Positions 7,269 to 46,712 of a DNA stretch of 50,480 bases are shown one piece after another. The DNA lies in assembly GCA_027064085.1 (NCBI GenBank), contig JAMOQH010000069.1, forward strand, positions 1 through 50,480, given 5' to 3'. The notes beneath the pieces are model-generated. The model saw nothing but the letters and a program-made list of their open reading frames with translations. It ran no database searches and was not told where the DNA came from. This DNA is from a bacterium. Lineage in GTDB: Bacteria; UBP6; JAFGXH01. Both the position numbers and the translations under genes were made by a program. Numbering within the stretch: position 1 is the first letter of the stretch; every line of letters begins with the position of its first letter.

Positions 7269-7292
7269 AGCACTTTACTATTGAGGAGCAGC

Positions 7293-10028
7293 ATGGCTGT
7301 CAATTTTGGAAAATATATATTACTAGATAAAATCGCAACCGGTGGTATGGCTGAAATATGGTTAGCTAAACAAACGGGTGTTGAGGGGTTTGAAAAATTA
7401 GTTGTTATAAAGAAAATTTTACCACATTTTACCCATGATAAAGAATTTGTTACAATGTTTCTAGATGAGGCAAGAATTGCGGCAAAATTAAATCATTCAA
7501 ATATTGTGCAGATTTATGATTTAGGTAAAGAGCAAAATACATACTATATTGCAATGGAATATATTTCAGGTGATGATATAAAGGGTATTTTACAAACATC
7601 AATTAAGCAAGGACATTTTTTACCTTTGCAACTTTCTGTAAATATAATTTCTCAAGCAGCAGCAGGCTTGTATTATGCTCATACTCTGACTGATATGTAC
7701 GGAACATCTATGAATATTGTTCATAGAGATATTTCACCTCAAAATATACTTGTAACTTATACTGGTTCAGCTAAAATCGTTGATTTTGGTATTGCAAAAG
7801 CTGCAACTCAAAGTCAGGAAACAAGAGCTGGTACTTTAAAAGGTAAATTCGCTTACATGAGTCCTGAACAGGCTCTTGGTAAAAAACTTGATGGAAGGTC
7901 TGATTTATTTGCTCTTGCAATTGTTTTGTATGAAATTACTTTAGGAAAAAGATTGTTTAAGTCTGATTCTGAATTAAAAACACTGAGAATGATAACAGAA
8001 GAGCCAATTAAAGCACCAATAGATGTTAATCCTAAGTATCCTAAAAAATTAAATGATATCTTAATGAAAGCGTTAGAAAAGGATAGAGATAATCGTTACG
8101 AAGATTGTAGAGGTTTTCATGTTGCATTGGAAGATTTTTTAAGAGAGTATCCTAAACCTTCTTCAAATGTTGATTTATCTAAGTGGATGAAAAAAACATT
8201 TGAAGACAGAATAGAAAAAGTAAAAATTCGTCATGAACAACTTCTAAAAGAAGCTCCAGATGAATTTTTATTAACAGATATGTTAGATTCAGAAAAACCA
8301 TCCAATGTTCCTCCATCTACTGAAAGTTCAAATTTATCCCAGTTGTCACAACTTTTAAATAGTTCTGGCACTCTTGGTATGAATTCAGGAACAAATAGTG
8401 GATATATGACAAATCCATTAAGTTCATCAGCTTCTCAATTATCTTATGGAACGGCAAAAGATACGGGCTCATATAGGGATTATAATACTGGTGGAAATAA
8501 AGGATTAATTATTGCATTAATTGCAATATTAGCAGTTATTGTAATTGGAATAGGAACTTATTTTATTGTTGTTGCAAATAAAAATTGTCCTACTGGTTAT
8601 ACAGGTAAAGATTGTTCTATTTGTAGTAAAGGATATTATAAATTTGGAAAAGAGTGTAGCCTTGTTAAATGTCCTAAGGGCTATAGAGGAAAAGATTGCA
8701 CATTATGTGATGAAAACTATCAAGATAATGATAGAGATGGAACCTGTAAACCGACTTGTAAAATAGCAAATATTTCATGTGAGGAAGGAGAGTATTGTAC
8801 TAGTAAAACGGGTATTGCAAAATGTACCCTTAAGGTACAAGATACCATGAATTTTGGAAATGGTGATATCATTGATAAAGGAAAATCTCTTAAAATTCCT
8901 GTGAAATCAGTTCCTTCGCTAGCTAATATTATTATTAATGGGAAACGGTATAGCTCCACAACAGATACCATTGTTGATTTTGTTATTGGTAAAGAATATA
9001 ATGTTAAATTAGAAAAGGATGGATTTAAATCTGTTGTTAAAACATTTACTTTTACAAAGGATATTACTAGGCTTGATTTTAAATTGGAAGCAAGTAATGT
9101 TATCTTGGGACACGCTAAGCTTGTTGTAACTAAATTTCCTAAAAAAGCTATAGTACTTTTTGATGGTATAAAATATGATAATCCAGATTCGGAAATTTTG
9201 GTAATTAAAAACTTATCAGAAGGCAAGCATCTTTTACAAGTAAAGTTAGATGGCTATAAACCTGAAACTAAAAATATTATCTTGTCTGAAAGAAATCCAT
9301 TGCAAGTAAAAATTAAATTAAAGAGAACTAGTATAAAATATAAAGATATTACAATTGAAACAAGCCCAAGTGGTGCTTTAATTTATGTTAATGGTAAAAA
9401 AATAGGAAAATCTCCAATTTCTAATTATTCTATAAAACCTAAAAGTAGATATTCAATAAAGGTTGTTAAAAATGGCTATAAAACAGAACGATTAAAAAAA
9501 TATAACTCATCAATTTCAAAGCCAATCTTTTTAAAATTAAAATCTAGTACTATAAAAAAGAATGTTAAAAATGAAGCAAGTAATACAACTGAAAATGTAA
9601 TTAAAGATACTGTAAAAAAAGATGTTCAAAAGGATACAGGAACATTAACAATTAATACTGTGCCTTTTACAGATATTTATTTAAATAATCGTAAAATAGG
9701 TTCAACTCCTTTAGCAGAGTATAGGTTGCCTGTTGGGCGTCATAAATTGAAATTAAAAAACAAATCAGCAATGATTTCTAGTACTATTAATGTTCGTATA
9801 AAAAAGGATGAAGAATTAAAACAAGTTATCAAATTTAAAAAAGGAACACTGAAAGTTGTAACTAATCGTAACCCAACTATTTTAATAAATAATCGTTCTG
9901 TAGGGGTAGGAACTTTAACAAAAGACTTGTATGAAGGTACCTATTTTATCACGATTAAAGATGTTGGTAGTGTAAAAAAATATACTATCACAATCAGACC
10001 AAGAAGAACTGAAACGATTAACTATTAA
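7293..10028 (+). CDS. Receptor-like Ser/Thr protein kinase with Cys-rich and PEGA domains
   Basis: 911 residues from the ATG that follows GAGGAG. An intact Hanks-type kinase fills about residues 8-270: glycine loop KIATGGMAEIW, Lys40 in VVIKK, HRDISPQN (Asp146, Asn151), DFG at 164-166 and SPEQA. A Ser/Thr/Gly-rich linker precedes a transmembrane helix near 405-427. Outside the membrane lies a block of about 80 residues with some 14 cysteines in EGF-like spacing (CPTGYTGKDCSICSKGYY), then three or four PEGA-type beta modules (for example 'TSPSGALIYVNGKKIGKSP' and 'TVPFTDIYLNNRKIGSTPL') up to the end. The design fits sensing of an envelope or surface cue; the ligand is unknown. Its end overlaps the convergent next gene by four bases. 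Confidence 0.92.
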   Translation: MAVNFGKYILLDKIATGGMAEIWLAKQTGVEGFEKLVVIKKILPHFTHDKEFVTMFLDEARIAAKLNHSNIVQIYDLGKEQNTYYIAMEYISGDDIKGILQTSIKQGHFLPLQLSVNIISQAAAGLYYAHTLTDMYGTSMNIVHRDISPQNILVTYTGSAKIVDFGIAKAATQSQETRAGTLKGKFAYMSPEQALGKKLDGRSDLFALAIVLYEITLGKRLFKSDSELKTLRMITEEPIKAPIDVNPKYPKKLNDILMKALEKDRDNRYEDCRGFHVALEDFLREYPKPSSNVDLSKWMKKTFEDRIEKVKIRHEQLLKEAPDEFLLTDMLDSEKPSNVPPSTESSNLSQLSQLLNSSGTLGMNSGTNSGYMTNPLSSSASQLSYGTAKDTGSYRDYNTGGNKGLIIALIAILAVIVIGIGTYFIVVANKNCPTGYTGKDCSICSKGYYKFGKECSLVKCPKGYRGKDCTLCDENYQDNDRDGTCKPTCKIANISCEEGEYCTSKTGIAKCTLKVQDTMNFGNGDIIDKGKSLKIPVKSVPSLANIIINGKRYSSTTDTIVDFVIGKEYNVKLEKDGFKSVVKTFTFTKDITRLDFKLEASNVILGHAKLVVTKFPKKAIVLFDGIKYDNPDSEILVIKNLSEGKHLLQVKLDGYKPETKNIILSERNPLQVKIKLKRTSIKYKDITIETSPSGALIYVNGKKIGKSPISNYSIKPKSRYSIKVVKNGYKTERLKKYNSSISKPIFLKLKSSTIKKNVKNEASNTTENVIKDTVKKDVQKDTGTLTINTVPFTDIYLNNRKIGSTPLAEYRLPVGRHKLKLKNKSAMISSTINVRIKKDEELKQVIKFKKGTLKVVTNRNPTILINNRSVGVGTLTKDLYEGTYFITIKDVGSVKKYTITIRPRRTETINY

Positions 10029-15676: not shown

Positions 15677-16495
15677 ATGAGATTCTTTATTTTACTATTG
15701 ATGATATTTTTTAGTGTTTCTTTATTGGGAAGAAGAAGCGGGGGACGAAGTGGCTCAAGAGGATTTTCATCAAGAAAATCTAGCTCTTTAAGTAGCTCTT
15801 ATTCTGGCTCTAGTTCTTCAAGAAGTTCTTACTCTGGAACTAAAAGAAAAGGAACAGGGTATTATGCCCCTTATAAAAAAAGAGCAGGTGTTTATGTTAA
15901 AGATGATGGAAGTGATTTTGCCAATATGCTTTTTATGGCTATAGGAGCAGGAGTACTATTTATAATAATATATATAATTAAGGATAAGTCTAAAAAACAT
16001 AGTTATTATAAAATTATTATGAGCAAAAAACATGGTGCTTTAAAAGATATTAATGATACGATAATAAAAAACCAAGAAGCTGTTAATAACTATGATTTTG
16101 AAAAGCAAACACACAACATAGAGAAAATATTTAGAATATTATCTGATAAACAAAATGAGCAAGTTACAAATAATGAGATTAGCATAGAAAATTTTATAGT
16201 CATAAAAGACGGTAAAAAATTAAGAGAAAAACTTAAAGCTGATCTGCAAAACGAAGAAAAATTTGCAAAAGAACTAGAAACTACAAATAAAGGAAATTAT
16301 GACTATATTAATATTATGTTTACCATAGAAAATAAATATTTGATAGAATATGATAAAACAGTTGAAGATGCTAATATAAAATTATTTTCAAAACTACTTG
16401 ATTTAGTTATAGCTATGCGTACTGATAATAAAGAAAAAATTGATATGATAAGAATTGTAATTGCTCAAAATATAGATAAAGAAAGCATTTATTAA
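15677..16495 (+). CDS. Ser/Gly/Arg-rich membrane protein of unknown function
   Basis: 272 residues. The start at 15677 follows TTTGGAG and opens with a hydrophobic segment (MRFFILLLMIFFSVSLLG). The next 45 residues are almost only Ser, Gly, Arg and Tyr in short repeats (SSYSGSSSSRSSYSG). A second membrane helix lies near 95-115 (MLFMAIGAGVLFIIIYII), followed by a charged helical domain of about 150 residues. Low-complexity region, membrane helix and C-terminal domain recall the Tim44-like family of bacterial membrane proteins, but the C-terminal domain is not recognisably Tim44, so this stays a guess. Confidence 0.6.
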   Translation: MRFFILLLMIFFSVSLLGRRSGGRSGSRGFSSRKSSSLSSSYSGSSSSRSSYSGTKRKGTGYYAPYKKRAGVYVKDDGSDFANMLFMAIGAGVLFIIIYIIKDKSKKHSYYKIIMSKKHGALKDINDTIIKNQEAVNNYDFEKQTHNIEKIFRILSDKQNEQVTNNEISIENFIVIKDGKKLREKLKADLQNEEKFAKELETTNKGNYDYINIMFTIENKYLIEYDKTVEDANIKLFSKLLDLVIAMRTDNKEKIDMIRIVIAQNIDKESIY

Positions 16496-16587
16496 GATTA
16501 TCATAATAAAAAATATCAAAAATTTCTTTAATTATTGCAATTCTTGGTAGTTTATAATAGAATGATGTATTCAATTAATGAGGTGTT

Positions 16588-18888
16588 ATGAAAAGATTAT
16601 TTTTATTATTCATACTTATTGTACCTAGTTTAGTATTTGCTGAAGCAGGAGTGATAGTTCCTAGAGGTTCTCATTATCCAAATGATAAAATTCTTTCAAT
16701 AGAAAAAATGAGAGTTGATGTTAAAATTGATGCATTATTTGTTAATGTTAAAATTATGCAAATATTTAAAAATCATAAAAATTATGACCAAGAAGGTGAA
16801 TATATTTTTACCATGCCTGATAATGCAATGATTTCAAATTTTGCTATATGGGAAGATGGAAATAGAATTAAAGGCGTGATAATGGAAAAGAAAAAGGCTA
16901 GGTCTTTATATGAAAAAATAAAGGCAAGGTTAATAGATCCAGGTTTGTTTGAACAAGAAAACAATTTTTCTGTAAATAAATTCAAAGTAAATGTCTATCC
17001 TATAGTTGCTAATGGTTACAAAAGAATTGAAATAGAATATACAGAGCTTTTGCCAATTAATTTTTTAACTATGAATTATTATTTACCCCTAAAACCAGTT
17101 TTATTTAAAAATTATAATTCAAGTATCAAAAATCTTGAATTTAATTTCTCGTACAGTAATAAAGTTCCTTATGGTGAGTTAAGATTAATTGCTCCTTTTG
17201 ATTATGAAAATAATTCAAACTTAGTAAAAAATAAAAATAATGTATCTTTTCAGTATAAAAAACAAAATATAACTTTTGATAAAGATTTTATTTTTACTCT
17301 TAATTATGATTTTAAAAAAACTAATTTTAATTTATTGACTTACAAAAATTTAAAAAAAGTAAGAATTGATTATTCTCCAGATAATAATGGTAAAAGATAT
17401 CAAGACAAAACTGGTTTTTTTAAGGGGGATTTTTATTTAAATGAAAATGTTAAAAATACTGATAAAACTTTTGAAGCTAAAAATATAGTAATTATCTTTG
17501 ATAGATCTTTATCTATGAAATGGTTGAAATTATCAAAATCTGTTGAAGTATTTAAAAAAGTTTTAAATACTATGCATACTGGTGATAAATTTAAACTTTT
17601 AACATTTTCTAATGTTGTTGAACCCATTTTTAATGACTTTAAAGATGCAAATGAGGAAAATATAAAAACTGTATATAATAAATTATTAGAAATGAAAATT
17701 AAAAATGGTACTGATATTTTATCTTTAATTAATGCTCTTAAAAAAGAGAGAAAAAATACTTATATTTATTGGATTACAGATGGACAAGCTACCTTAAATG
17801 AAATTAGAGATAAAAAATTATTGGTTAAATTTAAACAATTAACAAAATTAAAGTTTTTTGTTCTTGGTGTTGGTTCTGATACAAATAGAATATTTTTAAA
17901 TAAAATTACGGCTATGAGTAATGGCTATTATTTACATTTTTTTGAAAATGAAGATATTAATTTAAAAATGGAATTATTTAACAAAGCAATTAACCAAGAG
18001 CCTCTTTATGATTTCACTTATAACTTTAAAAATAAAAGTAATTTTAGTGATATTTATACATTACAACATGGTACTATATATGATAAGAGTGTATATTCAA
18101 TAGTTGGTAAATATGACAAAGCAATTAAAACAACTATAAGAGTGAATTATAAAAAAAATAAAGAAAATAAACTATTCAATGTTGAATTTCCTGAAAAAAA
18201 CACTAAAAATGAATATATTAAAAGAATTTGGGCTAAAGCAAGAATTGATTATTTACTAGAATTAATTAATAACGAAGGAGAAAAGAAGGCTTGGATTAAT
18301 GAAATCATTGCTTTATCTAAAGAATTTACTATAGTAACTCCATATACATCATTTTTGGCTGCTCCTCGTTCTCTTATTAGACCTAGGTCTATTATTCCTG
18401 GAGATCCAGTTTTAAGAGTAAAAACAGATGGAAATATTACTTCAGTTATTGCTAAATTTGAATTTGGCTTAACTAAAAAATTAAATTTTATAGCTAATAA
18501 AAATATATGGGAGATAAGATTTCTAGCTCCTGATTATTTAAAAGATGGAGATTATAAAGTTGATTTATTTTTAACAGAAAGAGATGGTTCAAGTATAATT
18601 GAAACTAAATATATTACTATAGATTCTACTCCTCCGATTATAAAAAAAAGATATAAATTAAATGGAAATGATTTAAAGTTAATTGTAGATGCATCTAGTG
18701 ATACTAAAAAGATATATGCCTATGTTGATGATAAAATTTTAAATATTAAGTATAGTAAAAAAGAGGGACATTCTATTGCTATTTTACCCAATGGCAGAAT
18801 TTATAAAAATAAGAAAATTAAATATATTTTAGAAGATTTTGCACATAATAGTTCAACAATTTATGATGTAATTAGTTTTGGGGAGTAA
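16588..18888 (+). CDS. Secreted VIT and von Willebrand A domain protein
   Basis: 766 residues with a cleavable signal peptide (MKRLFLLFILIVPSLVFAEA). Residues of about 30-150 match a VIT domain (VDVKIDALFVNVKIMQIFKN, then a 'YIFTMPDNA' strand and the 'GVIMEKKKARSLYE' helix typical of inter-alpha-trypsin-inhibitor proteins). A VWA domain follows from about 297, with the MIDAS motif DRSLS (Asp305, Ser307, Ser309), a Thr in NGTDILSLI and the Asp of WITDGQA. The C-terminal 150 residues look like beta-sandwich. Such proteins bind partners through a metal ion outside the inner membrane. A TATAAT at 16553-16558 and GAGGTG precede the start. The next gene begins two bases after the stop. Confidence 0.88.
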   Translation: MKRLFLLFILIVPSLVFAEAGVIVPRGSHYPNDKILSIEKMRVDVKIDALFVNVKIMQIFKNHKNYDQEGEYIFTMPDNAMISNFAIWEDGNRIKGVIMEKKKARSLYEKIKARLIDPGLFEQENNFSVNKFKVNVYPIVANGYKRIEIEYTELLPINFLTMNYYLPLKPVLFKNYNSSIKNLEFNFSYSNKVPYGELRLIAPFDYENNSNLVKNKNNVSFQYKKQNITFDKDFIFTLNYDFKKTNFNLLTYKNLKKVRIDYSPDNNGKRYQDKTGFFKGDFYLNENVKNTDKTFEAKNIVIIFDRSLSMKWLKLSKSVEVFKKVLNTMHTGDKFKLLTFSNVVEPIFNDFKDANEENIKTVYNKLLEMKIKNGTDILSLINALKKERKNTYIYWITDGQATLNEIRDKKLLVKFKQLTKLKFFVLGVGSDTNRIFLNKITAMSNGYYLHFFENEDINLKMELFNKAINQEPLYDFTYNFKNKSNFSDIYTLQHGTIYDKSVYSIVGKYDKAIKTTIRVNYKKNKENKLFNVEFPEKNTKNEYIKRIWAKARIDYLLELINNEGEKKAWINEIIALSKEFTIVTPYTSFLAAPRSLIRPRSIIPGDPVLRVKTDGNITSVIAKFEFGLTKKLNFIANKNIWEIRFLAPDYLKDGDYKVDLFLTERDGSSIIETKYITIDSTPPIIKKRYKLNGNDLKLIVDASSDTKKIYAYVDDKILNIKYSKKEGHSIAILPNGRIYKNKKIKYILEDFAHNSSTIYDVISFGE

Positions 18889-18890
18889 GT

Positions 18891-21800
18891 ATGAGATATT
18901 TTATAATTTTTTTGTTATTATTTGTTATTTCTTGTTCTTCGGATTCCTCAAACAAGAAAGATAATGTGAAAAATAAACTTAAACAAACTTCAAATGAACC
19001 AACTAAAATAAATACAGATTATAAATATGAAAAACTTGATGTTGCAAAATTGTATTCCGCCTCTGATAAAGAAATTTTAAAAGAAATTGACTTGTCAAAT
19101 ATAAAAAATATTAAAAATTCCTTATTGTATTCAGAATCATCTAGTGTTTATATAGAAAGAAGCCCATTAGAGGTTTATGAATTATTAGTAAAAAAAGCTA
19201 ATAAAAGAAGTATTCAAGATAATATTTTATTTTTAAAAATATCGTTAGAGCTAGGTAAAAATGAAAACATTAATGATATTCTAAATAAACTTAAGTCTAG
19301 TGATTTAGTTATAAGTGAAATTAAGGAAGTTAATAGTATTTTAGCAAGATTTAATCTTTTTGATAAAGAAACGTCCTTCACTTCTTATAGATTAGAGAAA
19401 TTATTAAATAACAATAAAAAATTTGATGAAGATGGTAATTCTAGATTTTTAATATTAATTAATTTAATTAACTCCATTGAAACAACAAATTTAATAAAAA
19501 TTGACAAAAATAAATTTTTTAACAAATATTTTAAAATAGATAAATTTAATGAAACGATTAACTCAAAATATATTAATGAGCTAATTAATTCTAAAAAATA
19601 TTCTAAAGTTGAGAAATTTATTAATGATTTACTTTCCACAGTAAAAAACAAAAAAATACTATATAATAAAAAAAGTTTATTAACTTCTCTTGTTTCTATT
19701 TATAAAATTACAAAACAAAACTCTAAAATAAGAGATTTATATTTATTAAATACGAAATTGCCAGAAAATAAAGAACTTTTTTATGAATATATAAGATATC
19801 TGAAATCAGAAAAGATATGGGCTAAAGAATTAAAATATTTTATAACAAAATTTAATAAAGAAAAATCATTAGCTAGTTTTTATAGATATTATTTTTCACT
19901 CAAATATGAAAATAAAAATATTGCAATTCTCTTAACTAATTATTATGAATATTTATTAGAAAATAAAAATGATGAAGCAATTAAAGATATTTCTAAATTA
20001 TTAAGAACAAATGGTAAATATAAAGAAGCATTTAATTTATTAAATATTGCATTAATAAACAATAAAAATTCTAAATATTATGATGATTACCTCATCAGTA
20101 TGGGAAAAATTGTAGAAGGACTACCTTATACTGAATCAATGTATAAATCTTATTATTTTTTTAGTACTCCTGAAATTATAGGTGGAATTTTAAGCTTAAT
20201 CCAAAATCAGCATAAAAATAATGGTTTTTTATCCACTATAGATAATCAAAATAATCTAAAAACCAGAATAGAAGATATGGATTATCTTTTTGAAAAGAGT
20301 AAAAAACTATTTAAATCTAATGAAAAGTTAGCTATATTTTCTCAAAATTATTTTTATTTTTTAAAGCGTTATAAACAGGCTAATAAAATTAAAAAACTTG
20401 TTGTTGAATTAAAAAAACTAAATAAAGATATTTATTTTAATATTTTTTTGTTAAAAACAACTAGAAGTATTACTCAAAATAAAAAGAAAATAGCTTTATT
20501 AAATAATGAAATCTATAATTTATATTTAAAATTATTATTAGAAAATAAAAATAGCAAAGACAAATTTAATAAATATTTATCAGAAACACTTGGATTTTTA
20601 AATAATTTTAAATTAGGTAAAGCAATAATAAAACTTAATAGTTTAATTAAAATATACCCTGATAATGAAAAAATATATGAAAAGTTGCTTATTTTATTAG
20701 GTAATTATAGGGCATATAATAAAAAATTAGTTATTTATGAAAAAGCTCTTGAAAAATTTAATAAAAAAACATGGGCAGACAAATATTCTAGATTTTTAAT
20801 TAGAAAAAAATGGAATGATAAAATGCTTCGTTTAAATAAAAGATTGGTTAATCTTTTAAATAAAGATGATTATCAAAAATATTTAACAAGTTCATTTTCA
20901 AGTAAAAAGTATGGTTCATTTACAAGTGCATTTAATCAGTTATATGAACAAGTATATGTTGATGCTCTAAAAAAATATCCGTTTAATAAGGCTATAATAA
21001 ATAAATTACTAAATTTTTATAATGATTTTAGGTATTCATATAGATATAAAGACTCAAATGCAACTTATAAGTATGCTCTTTTGTTATATAAATATATTTA
21101 CATTTATGATGATTTTAGAGATAGATATTTTAAAGATAGATTAATAACCAAGAAAATGAATCATGATAAAATCGTTAATAGTATTCTTAAAAAGAAGAAA
21201 AAAACAATTCCAGACTTAAAATACTTAGCTTATATGCTTGAATATAAAGGAGAATTCGAAAAGAGTGTTAAATATTATTCTATTTTATCAAAATATTATA
21301 TTACTAATAAAAATATTATTTTTAAAACAGCTAAACTATATAAATCTCTTGCATCTTCTTTTTATATAAAAGACAAATCATTCTTAGAAAAGTCCGAAAC
21401 CCTGTATAAACGACTTAGTTTTCTTTACAGAAATGAAAGTAAATATTATATTTCTCTTGCAGAATTATATTATGAGTTAATAATGAAAAATAAGGCTCAA
21501 AAATCTTTATTCAGAGCACTAGAGTTTGAAAAGGGAAGTGAACAAAAATATATAGATATCGCAAATATGTTTTATGATTATTATGATTATGACAATGCTT
21601 TAAAAACAATTTATATTTACAGAAACAGGAAAGCTAATGATGATTTGTTAATTCCTTTTGTTGGCAGACTTTTTGAATTAAAAAAACAAGAAAAACTTGC
21701 AATTAAAGAATATTTTAGAGATTTATTAAATGAGAAAAGGGATAGTTACCAATCAGCGAAAAGGTTAAAATTTTTAATAAACAAGAAATCATTAAAAGAT

Positions 21801-24800
21801 CTAATTCTTTTAAATATAGAAGGAAATATTTCAAATGTAAGCAATAATGAAGTGTTATTTAATAAGTTTAAAGCATTTATCATTTCAATAAATAATAATG
21901 AATTATTAGATAAATTATATAGTTCTCTTTATGATGATGGAAACAATATAACTCTTTTAAAGCAATTATACTATACATTTAAAGGAAATAAAGATAGTAG
22001 AGCAGAAGAACTACTTAAAAAAATAGAGAAATTAGAAAAAAGTGATGAAGTTTATAGAATGTTGATTTCTTTTTATAAAGAAAAGAAAAATGTTAAGGAA
22101 GCAAGCGATTATTATGAAAAATTATTATTAAATAATCCTTTTGAAAATGATAAATATAGTTTTATAAATATTATTGAAGATTATTCTTCATATTTAATTA
22201 AAAATAAAGAATATGAAGGAGCAATTAATAAATATAATGATTTACTTGTTTATCTAAAAAAACAGAATGAAAAATTAAAATATAAATTGAGTATTGCTGA
22301 TATTTATGTACTACAATCAGAAAATAAATATTTAACTTATTTGCTTAAATTAGATTCAGAATATCCCGACTCTGAAGTTGTTAGTAACAAAATATTTTTT
22401 TATTATAAAAAAAGTAATAAAATTAAGGAAATGCTTAGTTACTTAAATGAATTAATCAAAAGAACAAAAAAGGAGATTAACTTATCATATATAGAAAAAA
22501 AGAAAAAGGTTGCAAGATATAGAAGCCTTTTAATAGAACAATTAATTGCATTAAAAAAATATAATTCAGTATTAGACCAATATATAGAAATACTAAATAG
22601 AAATCCTCTTGATTCTTACATGGTTAATAAAGTATATAATTTTGCAAGAATAAATAAATTAGAGGTTAGATTATTTGATTATTATACTAAATTATCAAAA
22701 AAATCCTTTAAAAATCATAAATACCTACTTTTAAATGCACGACTTAACTTATTGAAAGGTGATTATAATAAAACTCTTTCATATTACCAGAAAGCTAAAA
22801 AATTAGAGCCTCAAAAACTAGAAATTAAATATAGTATTGCAGATACATTTATTAAATTAAAAGAGTATTCAAAAGCATATAATTTATATAATGGATTATA
22901 TTTAAAAGAGCAAAATGAGTATACTAAAAAAGATTTATTAAAAAAGATGTTTGAAGTGGCTATGTATTTAAATAATACTAAATTAATAGAAGACTTGGCC
23001 TTTAGAATTGTAAGAAATAAATCTAAAAATTACTATGATTATGATAGCAAATATGTTGCTCAAACTTTATATAAACATAATTTCTTTGAACTTGCTAGGA
23101 ATTATTATGATAAGCTAATTATGAATGCTGTTAAATCAATAAGATATATAGATGGGGATGTCTTTTACCAATACTCAAAAACTTTCATTAATAAAGGAGA
23201 GGGATTATTACTAATAAGAAAAATCTTTGAACTAATAGATGAATTAAATTCTTTAGATTCTGTTAAGCATAAATATACTGTAAGTAATAATAAAAATGTT
23301 TTACTTACTGTAATTACTAAATATATACCCGAAAATATATCTTATTTTACGGCTTCAGAGATAAGTTCAATAAATTCTTATTTAGATAATCTTGATAATA
23401 GATATAGTAGTTATGTGAGTCAGTATTATAAAAAAATGAACTTAATGGATAAATATTTTAGTAAACTTACAGGTAGTTATGTAAAAAATACAAAATATAA
23501 TTATTATAAAGCCGCTCTTGACTATGATTCTATTATTAACCAAGGTTTATATAAAGTTTATGGATACAGAAAAAGAGAAAATAAAACTTTAAGCAATTAT
23601 AAAAAGGCATTTTTGTATTATGTTTGGAAAGATAAAAAAACTGCAGTTGAAATACTCGAAAATAATATCAAGAATTGTGACACCTATAATAAAAATACCA
23701 TTGCAACTAATGTTTATATTGAGTACCTAAGAAAACATAACCCAAATAAATACAGAAACCTAACTAAAAATACTTGTATCTACAATGATATACTCTCTGT
23801 TTATATTAAATATTCAGAAAAAAAACTTGCTTTAGAGTTAATAAATAATCAAAAACAGGATAAAGCCTGGAAATTAACTCAAAAAGTTAACCTATATTGG
23901 GCATTAGAAGAGTTTAACAAAGAGGGGGTTAATATTTATAATGAATTGTTAAGTACTAACTTATCAATTTCTGAAGAACTTAATAAAGATATGCTTTTAA
24001 CCGAAACAAGCTGGAATAATTTAATCAATAGATATTCTAATTATTTACTAAAATCTAATTTGGCAAGTAACTTAGATGATTATATCAATAATATTCTTGA
24101 AATTTCTCCGAAATCAATAAAATCATATTTAACTATTGCTGATATATATTATGTAAATAAAAAATATAAAAAGTCTGTAGAATATTTAAATTATGCGAGT
24201 CAACTTAAAAATAAAATAATCATTGAGATTAAATTAGCTGATAATTATTTGAAACTTGGAAAATTAGATAAATTTAATAAAATTAAAGCTAAAATATTAA
24301 AATCAAGTAATTTAAATAGTTTTTATAAATTTTATGAAATATTAAAATCTAACAAAAAACTAGATAATTATTTTATATCTATTTATAGCGATTTATTAAT
24401 AAAAAATTACAAGACTTATGGTTATTATAAATTAAGAAATTTTATACAACAAGTTACAGATTACTATAAAAATAAAAATATCACAATTTTAGCTTCATTT
24501 GTAAATAATTTTAAAGATGGAAAATATGAAGTATATAAATCAATACTATTTAATAATCAAAACTCATTTAATAATGATTACAAAATAAAGCTATTTAATA
24601 AAATAATTTCTTATTATTCAGAAATAAAAGATGATTACAGTAAAAGAACTTGGGTTCTAGCTGAAGTAGAATTTTTATCAATTACTAAAAAATATAATCT
24701 TGCTATAGAATTTTTAAATAAGTATAAACAACTTTTTGAATATGAGGATAGACCTAAATATAATTTTTATATGTTTAAATTATACTATTCATCTAAAAAT

Positions 24801-26000
24801 TTTGATTTTGCTAAAAAAATATTTACCTCTCAACTTAATCATAATGACTATTCTGAATATGGAGTTAATAAATATTTTAATTTTATAATGAATGAGGAAG
24901 ATTCTAAAAAAGAATTTTTATTAGATTTTTACACAGAATTAAGGGGGTTAACGAGCTTGTCTAAAGATAATTTAATTAAATTATTAGGATATTTTAAAAA
25001 CGATAGTAACTTAAAAACGGAAATACTGTATTTAATTAACAACCTTTATTTAAGTCAAACTCAATTGTCTAGCCTAGAAACTTTAGCATCTAAAAAGAAT
25101 TTACTAGAACTATATAAGCTAATTTTAGAAAATAAATATAATGAATTTTACAGTAATTATAATTATAAAAAATTAAATAATTATACTGATAAATATTATT
25201 CATATATTCTTACTTTAATAAAATTAAATAAAATAGATAAACTTAGAAGCGCCATTGATGATAGAAAATTATCAGTAGCTGAGTTATATTTAATAAATAC
25301 TGAAATTAATGGGTATTCAGATAATGAAAAAAGATTAATGTTGGTAAGTCTTAATTTTGAAAATATAGATATTTATTATATTAAGGCATTATTAAATTAT
25401 AGTTTAAAAAAATATGATATAGCATTATCTGAATTAAATAAAATAGATGTAAGTAAAGATTACAAATATAATTTAAAAATACCACTTTTAAAGGTAGATG
25501 TTTTATCTAAGTTAAATAAAGTTAATGATTTAGGAGAGTTAAAAAAAGCAATAAAAACATCTCCATATAATAATGATTTAAAATATCTCTTATTTGAATA
25601 TTACCTTAAAAATAAAGATAATGAAAAAGCTATGTTTGTTTTAGGAACAATGGGTTCTAACTTATATTTAGTTTTTGATAATATTGTTGCAGAATACTTT
25701 AAATATTTAAGCTTATATGGCTATTCTAATGGTTATGAGGGAGATTATTATGATTATTATCAACCAGAAAAATTAGCAGAGGAGGCATTTGGAACTGCTG
25801 ATAAGGATAAAAATAATTACATTGAAAACTTCATCTCAAAATATTCAGATAAACAAAGAAAAACTATAGTTAAGTTTTTATATCAACAATACCAAAAAAT
25901 ACCTAAAAACAAAAAATTAGGATTGTCAATATTATATTCATATAGTAAATTAGATAAGAGCTATAAAAAAGAATATGATAAATTAAAGGAGTCAAAATGA
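18891..26000 (+). CDS. Giant TPR-repeat lipoprotein (2,369 residues)
   Basis: The largest gene here. It opens with MRYFIIFLLLFVIS followed by Cys, a lipobox with Ser after the Cys, so lipid anchoring is likely. The rest is an almost continuous alpha-helical solenoid; canonical TPR units can be read at many points (for example 'GDYNKTLSYYQKAKKLEPQK', 'KKYKKSVEYLNYASQLKNKI' and 'GEFEKSVKYYSILSKYY'). It is very rich in Lys, Asn, Tyr and Ile. Near the C-terminus lies a Tyr/Asp-rich segment (GYEGDYYDYYQPEK). It starts two bases after the VIT-VWA gene and overlaps the M48 protease gene by four, so all three form one operon. A large periplasmic scaffold is inferred. Giant TPR proteins occur in myxobacterial envelope machines, but no orthology is claimed. 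Confidence 0.85.
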   Translation: MRYFIIFLLLFVISCSSDSSNKKDNVKNKLKQTSNEPTKINTDYKYEKLDVAKLYSASDKEILKEIDLSNIKNIKNSLLYSESSSVYIERSPLEVYELLVKKANKRSIQDNILFLKISLELGKNENINDILNKLKSSDLVISEIKEVNSILARFNLFDKETSFTSYRLEKLLNNNKKFDEDGNSRFLILINLINSIETTNLIKIDKNKFFNKYFKIDKFNETINSKYINELINSKKYSKVEKFINDLLSTVKNKKILYNKKSLLTSLVSIYKITKQNSKIRDLYLLNTKLPENKELFYEYIRYLKSEKIWAKELKYFITKFNKEKSLASFYRYYFSLKYENKNIAILLTNYYEYLLENKNDEAIKDISKLLRTNGKYKEAFNLLNIALINNKNSKYYDDYLISMGKIVEGLPYTESMYKSYYFFSTPEIIGGILSLIQNQHKNNGFLSTIDNQNNLKTRIEDMDYLFEKSKKLFKSNEKLAIFSQNYFYFLKRYKQANKIKKLVVELKKLNKDIYFNIFLLKTTRSITQNKKKIALLNNEIYNLYLKLLLENKNSKDKFNKYLSETLGFLNNFKLGKAIIKLNSLIKIYPDNEKIYEKLLILLGNYRAYNKKLVIYEKALEKFNKKTWADKYSRFLIRKKWNDKMLRLNKRLVNLLNKDDYQKYLTSSFSSKKYGSFTSAFNQLYEQVYVDALKKYPFNKAIINKLLNFYNDFRYSYRYKDSNATYKYALLLYKYIYIYDDFRDRYFKDRLITKKMNHDKIVNSILKKKKKTIPDLKYLAYMLEYKGEFEKSVKYYSILSKYYITNKNIIFKTAKLYKSLASSFYIKDKSFLEKSETLYKRLSFLYRNESKYYISLAELYYELIMKNKAQKSLFRALEFEKGSEQKYIDIANMFYDYYDYDNALKTIYIYRNRKANDDLLIPFVGRLFELKKQEKLAIKEYFRDLLNEKRDSYQSAKRLKFLINKKSLKDLILLNIEGNISNVSNNEVLFNKFKAFIISINNNELLDKLYSSLYDDGNNITLLKQLYYTFKGNKDSRAEELLKKIEKLEKSDEVYRMLISFYKEKKNVKEASDYYEKLLLNNPFENDKYSFINIIEDYSSYLIKNKEYEGAINKYNDLLVYLKKQNEKLKYKLSIADIYVLQSENKYLTYLLKLDSEYPDSEVVSNKIFFYYKKSNKIKEMLSYLNELIKRTKKEINLSYIEKKKKVARYRSLLIEQLIALKKYNSVLDQYIEILNRNPLDSYMVNKVYNFARINKLEVRLFDYYTKLSKKSFKNHKYLLLNARLNLLKGDYNKTLSYYQKAKKLEPQKLEIKYSIADTFIKLKEYSKAYNLYNGLYLKEQNEYTKKDLLKKMFEVAMYLNNTKLIEDLAFRIVRNKSKNYYDYDSKYVAQTLYKHNFFELARNYYDKLIMNAVKSIRYIDGDVFYQYSKTFINKGEGLLLIRKIFELIDELNSLDSVKHKYTVSNNKNVLLTVITKYIPENISYFTASEISSINSYLDNLDNRYSSYVSQYYKKMNLMDKYFSKLTGSYVKNTKYNYYKAALDYDSIINQGLYKVYGYRKRENKTLSNYKKAFLYYVWKDKKTAVEILENNIKNCDTYNKNTIATNVYIEYLRKHNPNKYRNLTKNTCIYNDILSVYIKYSEKKLALELINNQKQDKAWKLTQKVNLYWALEEFNKEGVNIYNELLSTNLSISEELNKDMLLTETSWNNLINRYSNYLLKSNLASNLDDYINNILEISPKSIKSYLTIADIYYVNKKYKKSVEYLNYASQLKNKIIIEIKLADNYLKLGKLDKFNKIKAKILKSSNLNSFYKFYEILKSNKKLDNYFISIYSDLLIKNYKTYGYYKLRNFIQQVTDYYKNKNITILASFVNNFKDGKYEVYKSILFNNQNSFNNDYKIKLFNKIISYYSEIKDDYSKRTWVLAEVEFLSITKKYNLAIEFLNKYKQLFEYEDRPKYNFYMFKLYYSSKNFDFAKKIFTSQLNHNDYSEYGVNKYFNFIMNEEDSKKEFLLDFYTELRGLTSLSKDNLIKLLGYFKNDSNLKTEILYLINNLYLSQTQLSSLETLASKKNLLELYKLILENKYNEFYSNYNYKKLNNYTDKYYSYILTLIKLNKIDKLRSAIDDRKLSVAELYLINTEINGYSDNEKRLMLVSLNFENIDIYYIKALLNYSLKKYDIALSELNKIDVSKDYKYNLKIPLLKVDVLSKLNKVNDLGELKKAIKTSPYNNDLKYLLFEYYLKNKDNEKAMFVLGTMGSNLYLVFDNIVAEYFKYLSLYGYSNGYEGDYYDYYQPEKLAEEAFGTADKDKNNYIENFISKYSDKQRKTIVKFLYQQYQKIPKNKKLGLSILYSYSKLDKSYKKEYDKLKESK

Positions 26001-27106
26001 CAGAACAAATAGTATTAAATTGTCGCCATTGTGGGCAAAAAAATAGAATAGACATAGAAAGAGCTTTATATCATACAGATGAAATTCATTGTGGAAAATG
26101 CAAAAAGAATATTTTCTTGGGTCAAGATGAAAAATTAGATTTTTTTGACTTAGGTGATTTTATACATCCAATGGACTATTCTACTATGGAAACAATAAAA
26201 AAAATACCTGCAATTACTTCAATCTTAAAGTTTTTAGTTAAAAATACAAAAGAAAAATTCTTTAAGGTGATGCATTATCAAAATTATATAAGAGTATCAG
26301 AAAATCAATATCCTAAACTATATAAATTATACAAGGAAATGGTTTATGTTTTAAATTTATCGGATAATGAACCAGAATTATTCGTTTATAAATCACCTAT
26401 GATTAATGCATATACTTATGGAGTAGATAAACATTTTATTGGGATTTCCACGGCAGCTCTCGAAGAACTTAGTGATGATCAAGTTCAAGATATTTTAGCT
26501 CATGAATTAGGACATGTTGTATTAGGGCATGTTTTATACAAAATGGCAGCAATTATTGTAGCTCAATTATCAATTTCTGTTGCGAATAAAACTTTAGGTT
26601 TAGGCGGAGTACTTATTTCTCCTATAAGATTCGCACTTCTATCATGGAGTAGAGCAAGTGAATTAAGTGCAGATAGAGTTGCAATTATGGCTACTAGGAA
26701 ATTAAAAGCGGCTCATTTAACAACACTCAAACTTGCTGGTGGTGTTTCTACTTATAAAGATGAAGATTATAATTTTAAAGATTTTTTAGCTCAAAGTGAA
26801 AAAGCTAGACAAATTGAAGATGAGTCAATTTTAACTAAAATATATAATTTTTGGGAAAACCAACAGATTACACATCCGTTTCCATTGTGGCGAGCAGGTG
26901 AATTGGATAAATGGGCAAAAAGTGGAGATTATTTAAGAGTTATTTCTAAAAACCATGTTACAGAACGAGGTTTAATTAGAGATGTTCAAAAATGTGAAAA
27001 CTGCAATAATGAGTATTCTGTTAGATTAACTGTTTGTCCTTATTGTGGACATAGTAAAGAAAAGAGTGATGAATCGTTTTTTGATAAGCTAAAGGGATTA
27101 TTCTAA
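25997..27106 (+). CDS. M48-family zinc metalloprotease with zinc ribbons at both ends
   Basis: 369 residues. The N-terminus has a two-CxxC zinc ribbon (LNCRHCGQKN, then IHCGKCKKNI). The M48 protease core has HELGHVVLGH (zinc ligands His169 and His173, Glu170 catalytic) and the downstream ELSADR motif with the third ligand. A hydrophobic stretch follows the HExxH. A second zinc ribbon closes the protein (KCENCNNEYS, VCPYCGH). The catalytic site appears intact. The start overlaps the previous stop as ATGA, so it is translationally coupled to the giant TPR lipoprotein. A quality-control or processing role for that system is plausible but not shown. The ribbons suggest the ends face the cytoplasm. 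Confidence 0.9.
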   Translation: MTEQIVLNCRHCGQKNRIDIERALYHTDEIHCGKCKKNIFLGQDEKLDFFDLGDFIHPMDYSTMETIKKIPAITSILKFLVKNTKEKFFKVMHYQNYIRVSENQYPKLYKLYKEMVYVLNLSDNEPELFVYKSPMINAYTYGVDKHFIGISTAALEELSDDQVQDILAHELGHVVLGHVLYKMAAIIVAQLSISVANKTLGLGGVLISPIRFALLSWSRASELSADRVAIMATRKLKAAHLTTLKLAGGVSTYKDEDYNFKDFLAQSEKARQIEDESILTKIYNFWENQQITHPFPLWRAGELDKWAKSGDYLRVISKNHVTERGLIRDVQKCENCNNEYSVRLTVCPYCGHSKEKSDESFFDKLKGLF

Positions 27107-27135
27107 ATTTTAATTTTCTCCGTTCTTAAGTCATG

Positions 27136-27151
27136 GCTTTATATATAAAGC
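27136..27151. repeat. Perfect 16-bp palindrome after the M48 gene
   Basis: GCTTTATATATAAAGC reads the same on both strands. It lies 30 bases after the M48 stop and 45 bases before the next -35 box. It could end the upstream operon or bind a dimeric regulator; no T-tract follows directly. Nothing else was recognised in 27107-27195. Confidence 0.35.
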
Positions 27152-27195
27152 TATACTAAATATAAAAATATTTATTTATTTAATATATTATTTCT

Positions 27196-27227
27196 TTGAC
27201 ATAATCAGTAAAAATCGTTAATATAAT
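27196..27227 (+). promoter_or_regulatory. Promoter of the repeat-bearing outer-membrane protein gene
   Basis: An exact TTGACA (27196-27201) with two possible -10 boxes: TAATAT at 27219-27224 (17-base spacer) or an exact TATAAT at 27222-27227 (20-base spacer). The ATG lies about 20 bases further on, after TTGAGG. Confidence 0.6.
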
Positions 27228-27247
27228 GTAAATATTATTGAGGTTTT

Positions 27248-28687
27248 ATGAAATATTTAATGATTTTAGTACTTAGTTGTTTAACTTTTATTGCTTATAG
27301 TGAAGATTTTCCTATTATGCTTAATGTTAAATCAGATATTAAAATTCCAGATGATTTTAGAGATGGAGTAGAAGAATCTTTAACAACTATGGGTTATAGT
27401 CTTGTTGATGATAAAGCTCAAAAAGAAGCATTAAAGGAAAATGCAAAAGCAAGAAATTCAGAATGCTATGATGATGAATGTTTAGTTGATACGGGTAAAA
27501 TGCTTGCAGCAAGAGCATTGATTTCTGTTGAAGTTGATAAAAAAAGTGATAAACTTTATAAGTTTAAAGCTAGGTATATAGATTTTGAAACGGGTACAAC
27601 AACAAAATCAAAGGTAATGTATTATGAAGCTGAGTTAAATGATTACCAAGCTTTATCAAAATTCGGAAAAGAATTTACCAAACTATTATTAGGCGGTAAA
27701 ACTAGTAGGGATGAGGCGATGACTCATCCTGCTACTAGTAAAGTGACTCATCCTACTACTAGTAAAGCGACTCATCCTACTACTAGTAAAGCGACTCATC
27801 CTGCTACTAGTAAAGCGACTCATCCTGCTACTAGTAAAGCGACTCATCCTACTACTAGTAAAGTGACTCATCCTGCTACTAGTAAAGCGACTAGCAAAGA
27901 TATTAATAAAAACAACAACAAGGATAAACCAAAAGAGCAGTTTATTAAAAAAGATACCAAAAATAAGCCAAAAATTTCTCCTACTAAAAAAGAGAAAAAA
28001 ATTACTAATTTGTTATTAAAATCCAAAAGATATGCAAATGATTTTGATATAACAATTTCTTTACATGGGGGCAGGAATGCTTTCTTTAAAGAAAGCAATA
28101 ACGATAAAGGAAAATTTGAAGAAGATTTGGATTTATCATGGGGCGCTCTGGGTTTTGGATTCGGATTAACCTATCATTTAAATCCATGGCTTGGATTTTA
28201 TATTGATGCAAATTATACCGAAAGTAGCGGTACTGGCAACAGAGATTTCATAAATCATGAAAATAGCAATCTAAGAGAATCTTATGATATTAGGGAACTA
28301 TCTTCTAATTCATTGTTTATTAGCCTCGGAGGTATGTTTTCTTTTGGAGATATAACAGGAAAAGGCCTTGTTTATTACTTAAAAACAGCATTTTCATTTG
28401 GAAGGGATTCATTTCAACATTCTATACCAGATAATGCTCCTGATGAAGAGAAAGAAGCAGACCTAAAATACTGGGATGCATATAAAACAACATCAGTTGG
28501 TTTTTCTTTGGAAGCAGGAATTAATATTTTATTTAATAGAGATAATGGAATTGATCTATATGCCTTACTTTATTATGGTAAAGTAGTAAATGATGATTTG
28601 AGTGCAGAACCTCATTTTCTTAAATTAAAGAAAGGTGAAACAATAAAATTTCTTTTAGGAATTCGTTATAATGTGTTTTCCTTCTAA
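27248..28687 (+). CDS. Exported protein: CsgG/FlgO-like domain, octapeptide repeats, beta-barrel
   Basis: 479 residues with signal peptide MKYLMILVLSCLTFIAYS. The first domain (to about 155) has the ECYDDECLVDTGKMLAARAL signature seen in deltaproteobacterial proteins with a CsgG/FlgO-like fold. Next come seven near-identical octapeptides, THP(A/T)TSK(A/V), and a Lys-rich linker. From about residue 260 the pattern changes to alternating strands with Gly and aromatics (LGFGFGLTYHLNPWLGFYID), ending in a Phe (GIRYNVFSF): an outer-membrane beta-barrel. It may sense or link periplasm and outer membrane; its true role is unknown. The repeat block could vary in copy number without breaking the frame. 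Confidence 0.7.
   Translation: MKYLMILVLSCLTFIAYSEDFPIMLNVKSDIKIPDDFRDGVEESLTTMGYSLVDDKAQKEALKENAKARNSECYDDECLVDTGKMLAARALISVEVDKKSDKLYKFKARYIDFETGTTTKSKVMYYEAELNDYQALSKFGKEFTKLLLGGKTSRDEAMTHPATSKVTHPTTSKATHPTTSKATHPATSKATHPATSKATHPTTSKVTHPATSKATSKDINKNNNKDKPKEQFIKKDTKNKPKISPTKKEKKITNLLLKSKRYANDFDITISLHGGRNAFFKESNNDKGKFEEDLDLSWGALGFGFGLTYHLNPWLGFYIDANYTESSGTGNRDFINHENSNLRESYDIRELSSNSLFISLGGMFSFGDITGKGLVYYLKTAFSFGRDSFQHSIPDNAPDEEKEADLKYWDAYKTTSVGFSLEAGINILFNRDNGIDLYALLYYGKVVNDDLSAEPHFLKLKKGETIKFLLGIRYNVFSF
27722..27889 (+). repeat. Seven tandem 24-bp repeats inside a coding region
   Basis: Seven contiguous 24-base units, each starting ACTCATCCT and containing CTACTAGTAAAG; they differ only at G/A (ninth-tenth base region) and at GTG/GCG at the end. 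Each encodes THP(A/T)TSK(A/V). Just upstream (27701-27715) lies an inverted partial copy, ACTAGTAGGGATGAG, that can pair with the first unit (27723-27739). The unit is a multiple of three, so gain or loss keeps the frame. Confidence 0.95.
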
Positions 28688-42649: not shown

Positions 42650-43978
42650 TTACAAATGAACATCAAGTGAAATTAGCTTTTTGGAAATACCAAAAAATAT
42701 ATAAACTTTTTTATTATTTTTATCATAAGCAATACCCTGTGCTCCTTCCATTGATTCGCTGTCTTCACCTATATCTGCCTTTATAACTACTTTATAGTCA
42801 TTATTTGTGTCAAGAACATATAGTGTATCATTATTAAAATTTGTAACAAATAGATAATTTTCAACTGTTGTTAAGTTAAGCATTACTGAAGTTGGATTTT
42901 CAAATGTATCAATAATTATAGGATTATCAGTATTTCTTAATATTGTATTATTTTGAATATCATAGGCATATAATTCAGGAGCAGTTCCACTTGCTAAATA
43001 TAAAATGTTATTATCATTACTTAAAGAATAAGCTCCTACAAATCCTGATAATTCACCATCTGTAAAAGGAATTTTAACATTTGTAAATCCTGCATCAATA
43101 TTTGAAAGATCTAAAATGTCTATACCTGAATCAGATTTAGGATAACCAATATAATTGGCATCAAATTCAATGATACCTGAATTTATTACATATAATTTGT
43201 TATTTAATATAAATACTTTTTGTGGATTTTTTTGAGTTGTAGGGATTTTTTTAGTAAAACTATCATTAGCTTTATCTATCATTGTAATAAAACCATCATT
43301 ATAAGTTGTTACCCAGTTTTCATCCATTGTATAATCTGCATTTGCAATAAAAATATTTTTATCATCAACAGCGATTCCTTCTGGGGCTTTTAAGGAGTTT
43401 TCCCCGTCAAATGATGTTGTTATAAGCATAGCTGGCATGTTTAGCTTAGCTCTTGAATAAGAGTTTGTTGCTAAATTTGTAACAAACAATTCATTATCAC
43501 TATCAATAGTCATAAAAAAAGGATTACTACTTTCAGGTAAAGATATAAAAGGGTTATGATTGGTTGGACCATCTGTTAATTCTATTTTTTGGATAGCATT
43601 ATCCATTGAATTTACAATAAATAATGAATTGTCTTTTAATAAAATTTGATTAGGGGCAGAACCCGTTGTTACTCCTATATCCTGAATATCATTTGAATCA
43701 ATAATACACTTTCCATTATCTTCATGTCCTACGATACATGTTTTGGAAGCTGTTTTACATTCATGAGTTGTAGTATTACATGTTGCGTTATCGCAATCTG
43801 AATCCTTGTTGCACTTACCTGAAAGGAGTTCACAAACATTATCATCGTTACATGTTTCATATGATTTACATTTTGGGTCACAGGTTACGTTATTCTCTGT
43901 GTTATTGTCGGTATCTTCTCCACATGAGATAAAGAAAAACATTGTTAAAGTTAATAAAATGGTTAATAGTTTTTTCAT
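42650..43978 (-). CDS. Cys-rich beta-propeller lipoprotein (BtuG-like candidate for B12 capture)
   Basis: 442 residues. The ATG at 43978 follows AGGAGG and opens a lipoprotein signal (MKKLLTILLTLTMFFFIS then Cys). A disulfide-type Cys-rich stalk of about 70 residues follows (CDPKCKSYETCNDDNVCELL and on). The rest is a beta-propeller with repeated blades such as NQILLKDNSLFIVNSMDNAI, APEGIAVDDKNIFIANADY and VENYLFVTNFNNDTLYVLD (YncE/NHL-like). It lies 16 bases after the riboswitch-controlled TonB receptor gene, so both are probably induced by low B12. In Bacteroidota the lipoprotein propeller BtuG sits on BtuB and binds B12. An analogous role is inferred from gene order and fold, not from detected homology. 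Confidence 0.75.
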   Translation of the reverse strand: MKKLLTILLTLTMFFFISCGEDTDNNTENNVTCDPKCKSYETCNDDNVCELLSGKCNKDSDCDNATCNTTTHECKTASKTCIVGHEDNGKCIIDSNDIQDIGVTTGSAPNQILLKDNSLFIVNSMDNAIQKIELTDGPTNHNPFISLPESSNPFFMTIDSDNELFVTNLATNSYSRAKLNMPAMLITTSFDGENSLKAPEGIAVDDKNIFIANADYTMDENWVTTYNDGFITMIDKANDSFTKKIPTTQKNPQKVFILNNKLYVINSGIIEFDANYIGYPKSDSGIDILDLSNIDAGFTNVKIPFTDGELSGFVGAYSLSNDNNILYLASGTAPELYAYDIQNNTILRNTDNPIIIDTFENPTSVMLNLTTVENYLFVTNFNNDTLYVLDTNNDYKVVIKADIGEDSESMEGAQGIAYDKNNKKVYIFFGISKKLISLDVHL

Positions 43979-43994
43979 GAATCCTCCTAAAAGA

Positions 43995-46624: not shown

Positions 46625-46669
46625 GCTATATTATAATATAGCTCCCTGAAAGCAAGGCATCTTGCTTTC
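46625..46669. repeat. Palindrome and stable hairpin in the Rpn leader
   Basis: GCTATATTATAATATAGC (46625-46642) is a perfect 18-bp palindrome. Directly after it GAAAGCAAG (46648-46656) pairs with CTTGCTTTC (46661-46669) over the loop GCAT. They lie 30-90 bases before the Rpn start and could form a structured leader, an operator or a recombination site. Confidence 0.6.
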
Positions 46670-46712
46670 GAGCCTCTCCTTGGAGGAAAATGTTTGTATA
46701 GGAGGTTTAATA

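Follow-up and report, generated by a model that had tools for sequence, protein, structure and literature searches.

A window of 50,480 nucleotides (nt), contig C69 of an AT-rich draft genome (G000; 3.65 Mb, 195 contigs) from a bacterium of the GTDB lineage UBP6, carries side by side the genes for a protein with a VIT and a VWA domain (VIT-VWA), predicted to be exported, and for a giant lipoprotein of tetratricopeptide repeats (TPR). Comparison of their sequences across genomes gives good support to the view that these two proteins are a conserved, usually adjacent pair of old partners. That they would be two subunits of one envelope complex, in which the TPR protein is a scaffold organising peptidoglycan remodelling, seems to us an evenly balanced proposition, the pairing being well supported and the peptidoglycan function being what we infer. 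The original prediction, made from this sequence alone, had joined the pair to a third gene, for a zinc-ribbon M48 metalloprotease, as one undescribed envelope machine, and for the VIT-VWA/TPR pair this appears to be a fair reading.

The giant TPR protein was searched for in 386 genomes and in genome sets that define four phyla, 28 genomes for the window's own phylum, 17 for that of G061, 7 for that of G359 (with G080 and G407) and 35 for that of G306; the phyla are known from these sets alone, that of G061 being taken as separate from the other three because of the set sizes. A profile of three copies matched strongly in only five of the 386 genomes (G000, G001, G080, G306 and G359), of which G000 and G001 were in the model and the other three scored 484, 417 and 321 bits, against 46.7 bits at best for the genome that came next; two candidates per genome were scored in this search, and absences in it are not firm. 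Among the 17 genomes of G061's phylum strong TPR profile matches are confined to G061 and G073, while a six-copy profile found the protein in 3/7 genomes of G359's phylum (G359, G080 and, as a new full-length match, G407) and in 1/35 of G306's. The matches outside the models are those of G407 (1,371 bits, aligned over positions 22-2384 of 2,389) and G080 (957 bits), and the same two genomes provide the independent VIT-VWA matches.

Giant TPR proteins of the full-length type were found in this way in eight genomes from four phyla, all eight of which also have a VIT-VWA, which bears out the association originally predicted for the two. The VIT-VWA gene lies directly upstream of the TPR gene, on the same strand, in six of the eight (three phyla), at spacings of +2 (G000), +36 (G001), +3 (G306), -8 (G359), -4 (G407) and -1 nt (G080); G061 and G073 also have a VIT-VWA of this type, but on a different contig from the TPR gene and preceded by the same propeller gene (see below). 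Within the window's phylum, VIT-VWA orthologues (E < 1e-200) occur in 2/28 genomes, G000 and G001, the same two that carry the giant TPR, and G001 keeps the two genes adjacent and in order, followed by a gene for an extracytoplasmic function (ECF) sigma factor and by a small open reading frame (ORF). The TPR and VIT-VWA trees concur in grouping the window's genome with G001, G061 with G073, and G080 with G359 and G407, and none of 500 shuffles left the eight VIT-VWAs equally clustered.

Two other kinds of protein touch on this pair. A second family of TPR lipoproteins, of about 1,800 amino acids (aa), is found in G061's phylum (L130, L131, L132), where it does not adjoin VIT-VWA. In G002, of the window's phylum, a single chain (L052, 4388-7372) combines a VIT domain (E 3.9e-22), a TPR-like stretch (TPR_12, below its cut-off) and DUF2135 (E 2.5e-16), a fusion that lends weak additional support to the idea of VIT proteins working with TPRs.

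The seven complete copies of the giant TPR protein measure 2,369, 2,418, 2,373, 2,376, 2,375, 2,415 and 2,423 aa, with one more split over two contigs, and identity to the window's copy goes down to 14% among the giant homologues. As a general expectation, a very large repeat protein would seldom keep the same length from phylum to phylum if nothing depended on that length. The N-terminus bears a lipobox in G000, G001, G061 and G073 and a signal-anchor-like helix in G359, G407 and G080. Pfam recognises TPR_19 in the window's copy (E 2.3e-14), and a structure model of residues 560-1400 (841 residues) consists of 44 helices and zero strands, with a block of predicted local distance difference test scores (pLDDT) of ~77-95 across residues ~361 to ~810 of the modelled piece and poor values (~30-45) at 176-309. 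By this model the protein is, in its modelled core, a TPR superhelix, and extrapolation from the core to some 2,400 residues would give roughly 60 hairpins. The helical solenoid on a lipid anchor first proposed is therefore supported for the modelled core and by the lipobox. The core resembles IFT139, SKI3, CTR9, OGT and LbcA (Foldseek and profile search).

In the VIT-VWA protein the VIT domain (residues 38-151, Pfam E 1.3e-24) is followed by the VWA domain (299-459, E 3.2e-9), both above the Pfam cut-offs, and a conserved beta-rich module at the C-terminus (~590-766). Its single hydrophobic stretch is N-terminal and, by hydropathy, a signal peptide, and the residues of a metal-ion-dependent adhesion site (MIDAS), DxSxS...T...D, form a complete set (D305, S307, S309, T375 and D398), in agreement with its initial description as an exported protein of a metal-ion-dependent type; the motif and hydropathy reading found no surface anchor. 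The structure model (mean pLDDT 49.6) is confident for VWA and poor for VIT. The order VIT then VWA is also that of the marine proteobacterial sortase target TIGR03788, an identity that was rejected: the window protein scores 143 bits against an equivalog cut-off of 551.65, and differs in ending in the beta-rich module. The inter-alpha-trypsin inhibitor heavy chains ITIH1/ITIH4 share the VIT-VWA core (residues 37-592 aligned, E 9.6e-22, PDB) but are animal extracellular proteins without a TPR partner.

The case for peptidoglycan comes from the genes round the TPR gene in three other phyla, where "cluster", like "overlap" throughout, refers to gene spacing and not to RNA. Six genes follow each other in one direction in G306, with domains assigned by Pfam: 1) a Reg_prop (PF07494) beta-propeller; 2) VIT-VWA; 3) the giant TPR; 4) an unnamed protein of about 500 aa; 5) a penicillin-binding protein of transpeptidase fold (PF00905); 6) a SpoIID protein (PF08486), from a family of glycan-cutting enzymes. 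G359 and G407 hold the first five of these, G080 has the same five over two contig ends with SpoIID adjoining, convergent, behind them, and the clusters of G061 and G073 comprise TPR, unnamed protein, transpeptidase and SpoIID. SxxK and KTG are invariant in the five transpeptidases aligned (the G407 copy being excluded from the alignment), as is Glu146 in 4/4 SpoIID proteins, at the place of what we take to be the catalytic motif. The transpeptidase, SpoIID and propeller profiles were built partly from these same loci, and the matches that count as independent are, in G407, those of the unnamed protein (E 1.8e-92) and the transpeptidase and, in G080, those of the transpeptidase and the propeller. 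The unnamed protein is strong in only G306, G080 and G359 among the 386 genomes, with weak matches away from the pair in G000, G001 and G002 (E 4e-7 to 2e-8; E 3.6e-7 for contig C172 of G000); the three copies tested against Pfam fell into none of its families, and "DUF3352-like" is a tentative label. In Waddlia chondrophila, according to passages of PMC6635528, which also mention E88 of SpoIID, a homologue of SpoIID serves as a septal lytic transglycosylase.

By contrast with these clusters, the three SpoIID genes of the window's genome all lie elsewhere (C193, C49 and C116), and neither the unnamed protein, the transpeptidase nor SpoIID is adjacent to the pair in the window; in the window's family the VIT-VWA/TPR core alone is still linked. 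At 42650-45791 of the window a secreted NHL/arylesterase-like propeller gene adjoins a second exported gene with barrel-like sequence, and G061 has a similar propeller gene (L083, 2946-4223; 30% over 118 aa) beside its VIT-VWA region.

The TPR superhelix could thus be pictured as a membrane-anchored scaffold that would hold periplasmic peptidoglycan enzymes, a transpeptidase and a cutter of glycan strands. The metal site of VIT-VWA might dock a partner or report occupancy, the propeller might act as hub or sensor, and the complex as a whole would couple local opening and closing of the wall. A bolder version, in which an undescribed envelope machine present in at least four phyla uses the TPR protein as a ruler or scaffold of fixed length for wall synthesis and cutting, with VIT-VWA as a metal-dependent switch and the propeller as hub, is tentative and falls somewhat short of an even chance. 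Searches of open-access full-text literature, subscription papers being outside their scope and some of them being aimed at related subjects such as LbcA and SpoIID instead of the cluster itself, gave no description of a VIT-VWA/giant-TPR/SpoIID cluster among the papers listed. What is kept is a giant TPR protein of constant length together with VIT-VWA and, outside the window's family, also with a transpeptidase fold and a wall cutter. Should the complex be real, it would be a new scaffold for peptidoglycan remodelling, would place bacterial VIT-VWA proteins in a cellular context and would offer six genes that can be put to the test.

Several observations weigh against this interpretation. 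The VIT-VWA/TPR pair of the window has no linked peptidoglycan enzyme, and the wall function is therefore a transfer from what is seen in other phyla. The cluster lacks SpoIID in G359 and G407, and SpoIID is a common protein, found in 9/9 genomes asked and also in 6/14 controls. The grouping of the eight VIT-VWAs on one branch is weakly supported (69/48), and the MIDAS Thr is replaced by Leu in the G359 protein, so that metal dependence would not be universal. Five genomes of G061's phylum have weak relatives of the TPR protein, shorter or cut by contig ends (best E 1e-13 to 3e-20); three of them (G065, G067 and G068) carry a VIT-VWA that belongs to another clade and is not linked, and VIT-VWA was not found in the other two (G069 and G070). 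G002 has neither member of the pair, which may be due to incompleteness, as this genome is 82% complete. Finally, Foldseek with the TPR model returned 333 matches at E <= 0.001, with low TM-scores; LbcA, being one of these hundreds of TPR matches, is a precedent and not evidence of homology.

As a precedent LbcA is the closest in kind. In the parts of PMC8764530 and PMC6050968 that describe it, this TPR outer-membrane lipoprotein of P. aeruginosa controls several peptidoglycan hydrolases with CtpA, and (PMC8764530) its 11 TPRs are arranged as an open spiral, which may wrap round substrates, so that the likeness lies in a periplasmic TPR superhelix on a lipid anchor, tied to peptidoglycan enzymes. 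It is matched by the TPR profile (E 3.5e-7) and by fold (Foldseek E 4.8e-7), but the giant TPR is about four times as long and has a VIT-VWA partner, and, against the 11 TPRs of LbcA, its 841 modelled residues alone hold 44 helices. The clusters read and the eight window proteins scanned contained no recognisable CtpA-type protease, no genome-wide search having been made. The Bat/MoxR operons, in the portion of PMC5700661 concerned, likewise encode envelope-acting VWA and TPR proteins side by side; the present pair differs in its VIT domain and its far larger TPR protein, and the eight window proteins scanned gave no match to MoxR, DUF58 or BatD beside it. A BatD-like gene (PF13584, E 1.3e-25) does occur elsewhere in the genome, some 3 kb away from a SpoIID gene (L174, 2826-8391), so that a Bat-like set may be present there.

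The reading first put forward, in which VIT-VWA, the TPR lipoprotein and the M48 protease make up one secretion or quality-control machine, now seems very unlikely. The M48 gene does overlap the TPR gene by 4 nt, with no terminator-like site within 16300-27400, G080 encodes, about 4 kb after its TPR gene, an M48-TPR protein whose N-terminus has a hydrophobic stretch, and proteases do cooperate with TPR lipoproteins, as in LbcA-CtpA (an account in part of PMC6050968). The G080 protein, however, is of different architecture (M48 plus TPRs) and sits past a convergent gene, and in 0/7 other giant-TPR genomes does M48 come next after TPR, its place being taken by the sigma factor in G001 and by the unnamed protein in G306, G359, G407, G080, G061 and G073. 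M48 orthologues (E < 1e-150) occur in 3/28 genomes of the window's phylum (G000, G001 and G002, the whole family), the other 25 having short weak matches only; the two close orthologues, in G001 and G002 (58-59% identity), lie among unrelated genes on contigs without VIT-VWA or TPR. Conservation across four phyla thus extends to the pair and not to the triad. Pfam places the protein in Peptidase_M48 (PF01435, E 4.2e-23, above the cut-off; HELGH at 169), and the zinc ribbons predicted at its two ends agree with four Cys at each (9, 12, 32, 35 and 333, 336, 347, 350). Hydropathy found no signal peptide or other export signal, and the best hydrophobic segment (residues 171-193, Kyte-Doolittle (KD) value 1.69, marginal) overlaps the HExxH helix, so that the membrane residence implied by the "membrane protease" of the original prediction is putative; with zinc ribbons and no export signal it is probably located in the cytoplasm, unlike the exported pair. 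As a third member M48 is rejected for its unlinked orthologues and missing export signal, and we judge it a local, family-specific neighbour rather than a conserved part. HtpX was rejected as its identity (34.9 bits at best against an NCBIfam equivalog cut-off of 341).

Wall enzymes often accompany trans-envelope machines, and a secretion or appendage-assembly complex, with propeller, VIT-VWA and TPR as the apparatus and transpeptidase and SpoIID merely opening a local gap in the wall, would fit a giant exported scaffold and a PorZ-like propeller match (E 0.004, below its cut-off); this is nonetheless unlikely, as none of the genes that recur in the clusters read is one for a channel, an ATPase, an outer-membrane barrel or a cargo. 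A complex for adhesion or gliding motility, after the myxobacterial parallel drawn originally, would account for a VWA with intact MIDAS residues, the giant TPR and the lipoprotein anchor, but no motility gene recurs beside the pair, and the low sortase-target score and lack of a visible surface anchor in VIT-VWA make it more doubtful still. TPR sequences are degenerate and readily give matches, which might suggest chance neighbours or an artefact of look-alike proteins; full-length matches (that of G407 from outside the model), constant length, the same upstream partner in three phyla and agreeing trees render this hardly credible. The scaffold for peptidoglycan remodelling remains the reading that we prefer.

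The three ORFs of the locus agree in position with the arrangement first described, with gaps of 2 and -4 nt (Table 1), and a GGAG/GAGG-like ribosome site precedes each. Promoter-like sites in the region number 117 against 103.1 expected (standard deviation 9.1), little excess for such AT-rich DNA, and the GC content is 0.228 for VIT-VWA, 0.202 for TPR and 0.295 for the less AT-rich M48 gene. An anti-phage defence role was considered and rejected, PADLOC matching none of the three genes, as was plasmid carriage (tblastn with VIT-VWA, zero matches at E <= 1e-30).

Table 1. Features of the VIT-VWA/TPR locus, in window coordinates
Feature	Position	Strand	Basis
VIT-VWA protein, 766 aa	16588..18888	+	ORF, Pfam, motif and hydropathy, orthologue alignments, PDB relatives, model
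Giant TPR lipoprotein, 2,369 aa	18891..26000	+	ORF, Pfam, family profile, helical core model, Foldseek, tree
Lipobox cysteine (Cys15, VISC, at the end of the N-terminal stretch) of the TPR lipoprotein	18933..18935	+	sequence
M48 metalloprotease, 369 aa, with a zinc ribbon at each end, 4-nt overlap with the TPR stop	25997..27106	+	ORF, Pfam, Cys and HExxH, unlinked orthologues

Beyond this locus, the window has a gene for an outer-membrane-type protein (27248-28687) in which a 24-nt unit repeated 7.2 times (27721-27892, 95% match) encodes THPATSK-like octapeptide repeats, a Ser/Thr kinase in which a cysteine-rich stretch precedes three PEGA stretches (7281-10028) and a PF04754 (Transposase_31, YhgA-like) gene whose tail has MEKG repeated (46662-47693); similar ORFs lie at contig ends elsewhere in this genome, in C123 and C116. 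In the uncultured bacterium G001 the small ORF that accompanies the ECF sigma factor gene after the giant TPR (L046, 12163-13005) has 101 aa and a single hydrophobic stretch and is perhaps the anti-sigma factor, and the same locus encodes a MACPF domain protein that also bears lectin repeats of the ricin type (15-2051). A further very large exported protein of the window's genome (L154, 10359-15245; 1,628 aa) has seven CARDB stretches with PKD and PPC domains.

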